This document shows, in pieces, positions 25,873 through 27,922 of a DNA stretch of 40,952 nt (the first letter of the stretch is position 1; every line of letters starts with the position of its first letter). Origin of the DNA: Bacteroidetes/Chlorobi group bacterium MS-B_bin-24. Its GTDB lineage: Bacteria > Bacteroidota > Ignavibacteria > Kapaibacteriales > UBA2268. The translations under genes and the position numbers were made by a program. The notes beneath the pieces are model-generated. The model made no database searches, was not told where the DNA came from, and saw nothing but the letters and a program-made list of their open reading frames with translations. The stretch covers positions 16,900-57,851 of the forward strand of contig RCNO01000014.1 in assembly GCA_003731685.1 (NCBI GenBank), in the 5' to 3' direction.

Positions 25873-26000
25873 TCTAAATTAACAAAATCGAACCAACAAA
25901 CAAACCAAGAAACAGATTAAAACTTCACAAAATTTTGGTATTTTTTAAATTTTTAAAAACTTAAATCGTTTAATAAGTTTTGTAAAATTTGAGGTGTTTA

Positions 26001-26477
26001 ATGGCATTATCGGTTGGAACAAAAGCCCCGGATTTTGTTGGGCAAACAGAGAGCGAAACAACACTAAAACTGAGCGACTTCCGAGGCAAATGGGTCGTCT
26101 TGTATTTTTATCCAAAAGATAATACCTCGGGATGTACACGGGAAGCTTGCGACTTCCGAGACAATTACGAAAGGATAACCCAAATTGGTGCCGAGGTTAT
26201 TGGCGTAAGCCCCGATAGTGTTAAATCGCACAAAAATTTTAAGTCGAAGCACAATTTGAACTTCCATCTTGTTGCCGACCCCGAAAAAGAGATCTGCAAA
26301 CTCTATGATGTGCTCGGCGAAAAGTCGATGTATGGAAAGAAATACCTTGGAGTGATACGTTCCACCTATATTATCGACCCTGATGGCGTGATTCGATATG
26401 TTAATCCCAAAGTTACGGTCGATGGACACGTCCAAGAGATAATCAATGAATTACAGAAATTACAGCAAGGGAAATGA
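26001..26477 (+). CDS. bcp: Thiol peroxidase of the BCP/PrxQ family
   Basis: 158 aa peroxiredoxin that reduces hydrogen peroxide and organic peroxides. Peroxidatic Cys45 and the nearby resolving Cys50 (TSGCTREACDFRD) are both present, the arrangement of the bacterioferritin-comigratory protein subfamily. GAGGTG before ATG 26001 favours it over a TTG four codons earlier. The stop overlaps the tatD start (ATGA), so it heads a bcp-tatD-lnt operon. Confidence 0.95.
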   Translation: MALSVGTKAPDFVGQTESETTLKLSDFRGKWVVLYFYPKDNTSGCTREACDFRDNYERITQIGAEVIGVSPDSVKSHKNFKSKHNLNFHLVADPEKEICKLYDVLGEKSMYGKKYLGVIRSTYIIDPDGVIRYVNPKVTVDGHVQEIINELQKLQQGK

Positions 26478-27922
26478 TAGATACCCATTGCCATCTTGAT
26501 TCAAAAGAATTTAAAGATGATTTGGAAGATGTAATCAAGCGGGCTTGCGAAGCCGGGGTTGAGGCTTTCGTTGTTCCTTCGACTGAACCAGCGAATATCG
26601 CTGCTTGCCGCCAACTTTCGCAAGAGTATGAGAATGTTTACTGGGCTATTGGAATCCATCCACACAATGCTAAAGAATTCACTCCCGAAGTAGCCGACAA
26701 AATTCAAAAGGAATTGGAACAAAAGGACGGGAAACTTGTGGCAATAGGCGAGGTCGGTCTCGATTATTATTACGACTTTTCCCCGCGCGAACTTCAAAAA
26801 GAAGTGTTTCGAACCCAAATTCAGTTTGCCAAAAATTTTAACCTTCCGGTGATTATACATAACCGGGATTCTTCTGCTGATTTGCTTTCCATTTTAGAAG
26901 AAGAGCAGGACGGAAGATTGCGTTTTGTTCTGCATTGCTTTTCGGAAAGCAAGGAATTTATGGAGAAAGCCCTTGAACTTGGTGGCTATGTTTCTTTTAC
27001 GGGAAATATAACTTTTAAGACGAATAAATTGCAGGATGTGGTGGAGTTGGTCCCCGATGACCGATTTTTTCTGGAAACGGATGCTCCTTTTATGGCTCCT
27101 GTGCCATACCGAGGAAAAAGGAACGAGCCTTCCCTTTTGAAGTTGGTTGCCGAAAAAATTTCCGAAATCAAATCCATATCAATAAACAAGGTGATAGAAA
27201 TGACAACAAAAAATGCACGTCAGTTTTTCAAACTTTTAATAATTAGCTTGTTGCTACTGTCCCCATTGATGCTCAAAGCCCAAGAAGATACAACAGACGA
27301 GGAGATTTACGAGAAACCGTACAAAAAATTCATAGGCATAGGCGGCGAGTTTGGATTTAATACGCTGGTAATTTTTCAGAGTTGGAACGAAAATGGAGTT
27401 GTGAAGGAGCGGAGTTCGGCTAACGAAGGCAAATTCCTTGTGGGTGCCAATATCACATTTTCGCCCGTAGATTGGAACATTCTCCGATTGGAATGGACAT
27501 ATACTTTCGACCGAAGGAAGCCCGATACGCTATTCCCCGACCTTGCCTATATTTATCGCACCGTGAATTTCACTTCCTTGTTCTTGATTAATCCATCGAT
27601 GCGGGTCAACTTTTTTGGAGGTGCAGGACTTAGCTATTTATTCAATTCTTTCAATCTTGGAATTCCCGGTCGTAACCCCAAAGAAAGCTTCCGTACATCA
27701 CTTGGTGGAAATTTTACTGCTGGATTTATTGTCAACATTCCTATTAGCAAAGTCGGTTTGATTACTTTAACGGGCGAATGGTTGATGATTTTCGATTTTA
27801 ACAAAACCAAAAATATTTACGACGCTGAACTCAAGAAACAAATTGATAATTCCTATTATTATTACTCTCAACCTCGCTTTAATCTTACATTTTATCCCGA
27901 ATTTTTAAATAAATTGAAATAG
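26474..27922 (+). CDS. tatD: TatD-family metal-dependent hydrolase joined in frame to an outer-membrane barrel protein
   Basis: 482 aa as one open frame. Residues 1-254 are a complete TatD hydrolase (3'-5' DNase family): metal-binding THCHLD, GIHPHNAKEF, GEVGLDYYYD, VIIHNRD, LHCFSES, FLETDAPF, and the normal end NKVIEMTTKNARQFFKL. Instead of a stop codon, the frame continues into a hydrophobic stretch (IISLLLLSPLMLKA) and about 215 residues of beta-rich barrel-like sequence ending in NLTFYPEFLNKLK. A cytoplasmic TatD cannot sensibly carry an internal signal peptide, so an internal start at 27200 is likely to make the second protein. AAGGGA lies before the first ATG, which overlaps the bcp stop. 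Confidence 0.88.
   Translation: MIDTHCHLDSKEFKDDLEDVIKRACEAGVEAFVVPSTEPANIAACRQLSQEYENVYWAIGIHPHNAKEFTPEVADKIQKELEQKDGKLVAIGEVGLDYYYDFSPRELQKEVFRTQIQFAKNFNLPVIIHNRDSSADLLSILEEEQDGRLRFVLHCFSESKEFMEKALELGGYVSFTGNITFKTNKLQDVVELVPDDRFFLETDAPFMAPVPYRGKRNEPSLLKLVAEKISEIKSISINKVIEMTTKNARQFFKLLIISLLLLSPLMLKAQEDTTDEEIYEKPYKKFIGIGGEFGFNTLVIFQSWNENGVVKERSSANEGKFLVGANITFSPVDWNILRLEWTYTFDRRKPDTLFPDLAYIYRTVNFTSLFLINPSMRVNFFGGAGLSYLFNSFNLGIPGRNPKESFRTSLGGNFTAGFIVNIPISKVGLITLTGEWLMIFDFNKTKNIYDAELKKQIDNSYYYYSQPRFNLTFYPEFLNKLK
27188..27195 (+). promoter_or_regulatory. Internal Shine-Dalgarno sequence for an in-frame second start
   Basis: AAGGTGAT matches the end of a strong Shine-Dalgarno consensus and stands six bases (from the GGTG) before an ATG that is in frame with tatD. 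It supports independent initiation of the downstream barrel protein. Confidence 0.6.
27200..27922 (+). CDS. Outer-membrane beta-barrel protein nested in the tatD reading frame
   Basis: 240 aa product predicted from the internal ATG. It begins MTTKNARQFFKLLIIS: basic n-region, hydrophobic core LLIISLLLLSPLML, and a likely cleavage before or after AQED. The mature part has alternating amphipathic strands typical of small outer-membrane barrels (FIGIGGEFGFNTLVIF, FLVGANITFSPVDWNILRLEW, FFGGAGLSYLFN, VGLITLTGEWLMIF, and a final aromatic strand FNLTFYP). Function unknown. The n-region is at the same time the C-terminus of TatD. The lnt gene begins 3 bases after the stop. Confidence 0.65.
   Translation: MTTKNARQFFKLLIISLLLLSPLMLKAQEDTTDEEIYEKPYKKFIGIGGEFGFNTLVIFQSWNENGVVKERSSANEGKFLVGANITFSPVDWNILRLEWTYTFDRRKPDTLFPDLAYIYRTVNFTSLFLINPSMRVNFFGGAGLSYLFNSFNLGIPGRNPKESFRTSLGGNFTAGFIVNIPISKVGLITLTGEWLMIFDFNKTKNIYDAELKKQIDNSYYYYSQPRFNLTFYPEFLNKLK

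Follow-up and report, generated by a model that had tools for sequence, protein, structure and literature searches.

Does a single reading frame that begins as a TatD hydrolase and ends as an outer-membrane barrel give rise to one protein or to two? The question is posed by positions 26474-27922 (+ strand) of a 40,952-nucleotide stretch of DNA (the window) from Bacteroidetes/Chlorobi group bacterium MS-B_bin-24. A sequence-only reading of this DNA had proposed that a complete tatD runs here, without a stop, into a signal-peptide core and a barrel-like protein, and that the arrangement is either a permanent fusion or an overlapping in-frame translation in which 12 codons serve both as the TatD tail and as part of a signal peptide.

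An enzyme, a signal peptide and a barrel in one frame

The frame is open from the ATG at 26474 to the TAG at 27920-27922 (482 codons, 482 amino acids) and encodes, in succession, a complete TatD hydrolase, a Sec-type signal peptide, and an eight-stranded OmpA-like barrel. The TatD domain occupies residues 1-254 (26474-27235, +), and residues 1-253 cover the full length of both PF01026 (E 1.9e-87) and TIGR00010 (E 1.6e-84), with scores above the curated cut-offs (293 bits versus 27 and 283 versus 206, respectively). In addition, the metal ligands H5, H7, E93, H129, H154, and D203 are almost invariant (alignment A5). By domain match and metal ligands, this half would be assigned to the PF01026/TIGR00010 hydrolase family; it is the sole close TatD in its own genome, a genome search having returned one match.

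An AlphaFold2 model of the entire frame, built with 13 relatives (mean pLDDT 82, pTM 0.57), shows a TIM barrel for TatD, then a helix of low confidence at residues 255-268, and an eight-stranded barrel at residues 287-475. Foldseek matches the TatD part of the model to 2gzx (TM-score to target 0.94). The second half, taken alone, resembles the OmpA transmembrane domain and NspA (VIA-align Z 16-17 for the two), and the mature protein (27281-27922, +, including the TAG stop) is modeled as eight antiparallel strands in an OmpA-like fold. PF13505 (OMP_b-brl) is matched by 19 of 52 relatives at E values up to 0.1, the window's own barrel being without a match, and a PDB sequence search with the barrel profile returned nothing convincing.

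Between the two halves lies a predicted signal peptide (27200-27280, +), with a signal peptidase I site, LKA/Q, that was placed by eye and by conservation. Its n-region would be encoded by 12 dual-use codons (27200-27235, +; MTTKNARQFFKL) that also specify the C-terminal tail of TatD, whose models end at residues 253-254. A hydrophobic core follows this shared tail in 87 of 89 sequences from the order, compared with 0 of 44 unfused controls, and an [AS]Q motif stands at the predicted cleavage site in 84 of the 89, compared with 1 of the 44. Judged by motif and hydrophobicity, the segment has the features of a Sec signal peptide with a signal peptidase I site. Furthermore, the Q at +1 fits the Q-rule described for signal peptidase I substrates in Bacteroidetes (PMC5837995), a rule that was reported there to be confined to that phylum, with related phyla excluded. 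Given the position of [AS]Q at residue 270 of the window's protein in those 84 order sequences, this lineage may extend the Q-rule beyond the published limits.

The fused frame across the order

The two halves were searched for in related genomes, most of which are metagenome-assembled; family names (f1, f2, and so on) are anonymous labels. The barrel is present in 117 of 123 genomes of the order (Kapabacteria/Ignavibacteria-type MAGs), and in 115 of these 117 it shares one uninterrupted frame with TatD, a few of the frames being cut by contig ends. In one of the two remaining genomes (G014), only a short piece of the barrel is seen, at the edge of a contig. The other, G111 (family f7, 70% complete), has a true split: its barrel (L396, on contig C7) has its own ATG and signal, and its TatD (L418, on contig C189) ends normally (...HFFDVK-stop). 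Thus, the claim of a complete TatD running without a stop into a signal core and a barrel has been borne out by the frame itself, the domain matches, the structural model, and the same frame in relatives.

These counts also bear on the suspicion that a sequencing or assembly error has deleted a stop between two ordinary genes. The window's own genome is indeed a draft of 109 contigs; however, the same open frame is found in about 115 independent genomes, including four that are single contigs (G002, G037, G045, and G084), and an error, which had been named as a finding that would undo the proposal, is consequently excluded, its probability being negligible. A recoded stop was likewise rejected, as the halves have no stop between them.

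A further possibility is that a programmed frameshift at the junction frees TatD alone, in which case the open frame would overstate the fusion. In the window, residues 245-247 do read A AAA AAT in frame, and the -1 frame meets a stop 15 codons past residue 243. However, slippery heptamers occur in just 18 of 44 f1 sequences, 1 of 12 in f2, 0 of 7 in f3, and 0 of 6 in f5, and off-frame stops lie at no conserved distance. With neither the slippery site nor the off-frame stop conserved, this explanation was rejected as highly improbable.

In other parts of the class, the same TatD-barrel fusion is found in family f13, and in family f19, TatD is followed by a signal, a coiled-coil-like stretch, and a barrel that is a distant relative (hhalign probability 91%, E 9e-7). 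In the f19 loci (L282-L291 and L301), the coiled-coil-like stretch is charged and the barrel is longer; an ATG lies two codons ahead of the junction column in 9 of 11, without SD (Shine-Dalgarno) bias, a related layout that lacks the selected SD. TatD stands alone in the examples from f11, f26, f27, and f15. In families f18, f28, and f20 (L292, L293, and L294, respectively), TatD is joined instead to a CNxxCxFC domain, which in L292 is TIGR04038, a TatD-associated radical SAM protein; in this class, TatD has acquired C-terminal partners of at least two kinds.

A phylum-wide sample yielded just two further barrel matches, both weak. Among the 80 matches listed from a pattern scan of GTDB contigs, at least 16 lie in TatD frames, of which 15 are fused, and the fused frames are assigned to Ignavibacteria, to Candidatus Kapabacteria/Kapaibacterium, or merely to Bacteroidetes or "bacterium." The one unfused TatD frame among these listed matches (L169, from Modern_marine.mb.176) has the same GAGGT-ATG motif, 15 codons from its stop, possibly by chance. 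The TatD tree places the order together with f13 and f19 in a single group (SH-aLRT 86). Because the TatD halves group in this way and the barrel profile is found almost only there, one old fusion is the simpler account, and many separate fusions are disfavored.

Upstream of the fused frame, the tatD ATG overlaps the stop codon (ATGA) of a bcp-type peroxiredoxin gene (25989-26477, +; AhpC-TSA E 1.3e-44). This neighbor is conserved, being found in 38 of 44 loci in f1, 11 of 12 in f2, 3 of 3 in f4, 6 of 6 in f5, 3 of 3 in f8, 1 of 1 in f10, and 5 of 5 in f13. Within the short flanks examined, lnt lies downstream in 5 f1 loci only. Of the bcp-tatD-lnt operon that had been suggested, the bcp side thus holds in most families tested, but the lnt side is limited to those five loci.

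A candidate start site inside tatD

As had been noted, the ATG at 27200-27202 (+) is in frame at residue 243, and from it the frame encodes MTTKNARQFFKLLIISLLLLSPLMLKA/QEDTT. It is preceded, in tatD codons 239-241, by a putative internal SD site, AAGGTGAT (27188-27195, +). The 6-base spacing given for this pair is correct when counted from AAGGTG, but the whole motif ends 4 nt ahead of the ATG. Because Bacteroidia ribosomes ignore SDs (PMC9976891), it matters that the 16S tail of relatives is GGATCACCTCCTTTCT, a canonical anti-SD, and that within the window, SDs precede 10 of 26 first ATGs versus 21 of 189 internal ATGs. The 16S of the window's own genome is unassembled; a match to GGNTCACCTCC in that genome was rejected, as it is not 16S.

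An ATG occupies the residue-243 column in 38 of 44 f1 sequences, 3 of 3 in f8, 5 of 5 in f9, and 1 of 1 in f10 (47 of 53 in total), compared with 0 of 14 in f11 and 0 of 27 in f15, which are unfused (0 of 41). When the set was enlarged, each of the 48 f1 sequences had an ATG between codons -9 and +6, 47 of them with an SD 4-mer at a suitable spacing; the pair is also found at the junction in 19 of 20 f2, 9 of 12 f9, and 3 of 3 f8 sequences. No unfused control has both elements, f15 having an ATG in 11 of 27 and an SD in 0. In f3, f4, f6, and f7, the junction ATG is mostly without an SD, and the six f5 sequences have no ATG at all within codons -9 to +6, yet retain the fusion, the signal, and the barrel.

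Synonymous shuffles of the SD are individually weak for any one sequence, and consequently, column-wise tests were used, with all other columns as the control. As an xAGGT motif needs a G-ending codon four ahead of ATG243, the third base of codon 239 can be tested. Among the Glu, Lys, and Gln codons at this position in f1, 35 of 40 end in G, whereas codon use in the same genes predicts 10.0 (z 9.3; the next best of 94 columns reaches only 2.5). Counted per genus, the figures are 20.5 of 23 versus 5.1 expected. When all degenerate amino acids are scanned, the SD codon column comes out on top, among 223 columns in f1 and 200 in f9. In addition, the mRNA near ATG243 is more open than the rest of the gene (percentile 0.72, P 1.6e-6).

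Where the ATG is displaced, the SD has moved with it. The f2 ATG is found eight codons upstream of the residue-243 column and is preceded by [GT]CG GAG (GGAG) in 17 of 17 cases, the GGAG column ranking first in the f2 degenerate-codon scan; in the three f2 sequences without this upstream ATG, GGAG is absent as well. The f1 sequences L034, L037, L306, L308, L406, and L068, which lack ATG243, have an SD and an ATG at -6 or -8 instead, and L058 keeps the usual SD, its ATG being shifted upstream by one codon. The relocation in L068 occurred within a genus, as its congener L083 keeps the usual site. SD and ATG co-occur with Fisher P values of 1e-12 at residue 243 and 1e-14 at -8, raw values that are inflated by related sequences and for which other columns of the same alignment are the control.

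Taken together, these features point to a conserved in-frame start with an SD inside the upstream coding sequence and make a strong evolutionary case for additional, independent initiation by ribosomes at the junction, so that one frame yields two proteins. The proposal of in-frame overlapping translation with 12 dual-use codons is supported by the conserved ATGs, by selection on the SD codon, and by the relocation of SD and start, a signature that unfused TatD relatives lack.

It has been proposed, though disputed, that ribosomes are slowed by SD-like motifs within genes, and the motif here could be imagined as a translational pause site ahead of the emerging signal segment, the ATG being incidental. 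This has only a slim chance of being right, as lineages that have an internal signal without the ATG (f3, f5, f7, f13, and f19) are also without SD bias, and SD and ATG relocate jointly. A somewhat better, if still doubtful, alternative is a plain polyprotein: the full-length chain alone would be made, inserted by Sec/SRP, and cut by signal peptidase I, which would free the barrel and leave TatD on a membrane stub. No fused genome has a stop between the halves, the [AS]Q cleavage-site motif is conserved, and all six f5 sequences keep fusion, signal, and barrel without a nearby ATG; indeed, this explanation may well be correct for f5. What it leaves unexplained is the SD-codon bias, the conserved ATG, and the joint relocation in f1, f2, f8, f9, and f10. 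Since f3, f4, f5, f6, and f7 keep the fusion without a recognizable internal initiation site, an internal start would be dispensable across the order. Families without ATG243 nest among families that have it in the TatD tree (many forks of which are weakly supported), and the start has therefore likely been lost or relocated.

Two products and known systems

We thus consider it likely that the one frame gives two functional proteins, through an internal start at ATG 27200 in addition to a full-length TatD-signal-barrel chain. In this model, ribosomes from 26474 would make TatD and then, for want of a stop, continue to the end of the barrel; with TatD lacking a stop of its own and keeping conserved metal ligands, its synthesis must always yield full-length chains. 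Other ribosomes would use AAGGTGAT to start at ATG 27200, and we infer this initiation, at whatever frequency it occurs, from a conserved frame, start, signal core, and cleavage motif, a selected SD, and an SD and start that relocate as a unit, all of which the alignments show. The product would be an ordinary pre-barrel with the last 12 residues of TatD as the n-region of its signal peptide; Sec would export it, with cleavage following LKA. The full-length chain, whose uninterrupted frame carries an internal signal and a predicted cleavage site, would probably be inserted at the same hydrophobic stretch, with TatD inside and the barrel outside, and signal peptidase would probably cut it, so that TatD would remain cytosolic, carrying a short membrane tail. 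TatD and barrel dosage might also be coupled.

The choice that had been offered between fusion and overlap is thus not an either/or: both parts are supported, as no TatD stop exists, and f5 is fused in six of six without an internal ATG. For the order as a whole, we lean toward an ancient fusion in which an enzyme tail doubles as a Sec n-region and the barrel would be reached by two routes, an internal start and the cutting, by signal peptidase, of a read-through polyprotein that cannot be avoided, with their retention depending on the lineage and the ribosome-binding site and start moving as a unit.

Most of the internal in-frame starts known in bacteria come from single experiments; in the present case, about 100 species share an evolutionary signature that renders one of them directly testable, and this one would join two cell compartments. 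Annotation likely misses an outer-membrane protein order-wide, because the domain and family searches run here see TatD and leave the barrel unnamed. Furthermore, f5, with no internal ATG, and G111, with split genes, are natural experiments on a signal placed after a folded 254-residue enzyme, and they pose the question of whether such a signal can still direct export and cleavage.

The elements of this arrangement are already known; their combination appears to be undescribed, a literature search having found no report of a TatD-barrel fusion. FbcH, the cytochrome b/c1 polyprotein of Bradyrhizobium japonicum, likewise holds two proteins in one frame that are separated at an internal signal sequence opening the second. 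However, its products are two membrane proteins of one complex, whereas TatD is a soluble enzyme with, to our knowledge, no link to the barrel, and we know of no reported internal start in FbcH. The TIGR04038 (tatD_link_rSAM) fusions in other families of the same class also join TatD to an in-frame C-terminal partner, but that partner is a cytosolic radical SAM protein without a signal peptide, and the three TatD-CNxxCxFC fusions read (f18, f20, and f28) have no junction ATG.

Cas11, which arises from an internal in-frame start in cas8/cas10 (PMC11899642 and works cited therein), is similar: a large protein and a C-terminal protein with its own initiation share one frame, an SD-like site lies in the upstream coding sequence, and the arrangement is conserved in related genomes. 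There, however, both products belong to one complex in one compartment, whereas the second product here is a predicted exported outer-membrane protein and the shared codons would specify its signal peptide. Finally, the OmpX/PagC N-terminal proteoforms of Salmonella (PMC11005335) also have alternative in-frame starts that set the presence of an N-terminal signal on an eight-stranded outer-membrane protein. In that case, the longer form carries the signal; in the TatD-barrel frame, it is the shorter form whose signal would be N-terminal, a whole enzyme being added in the longer one.
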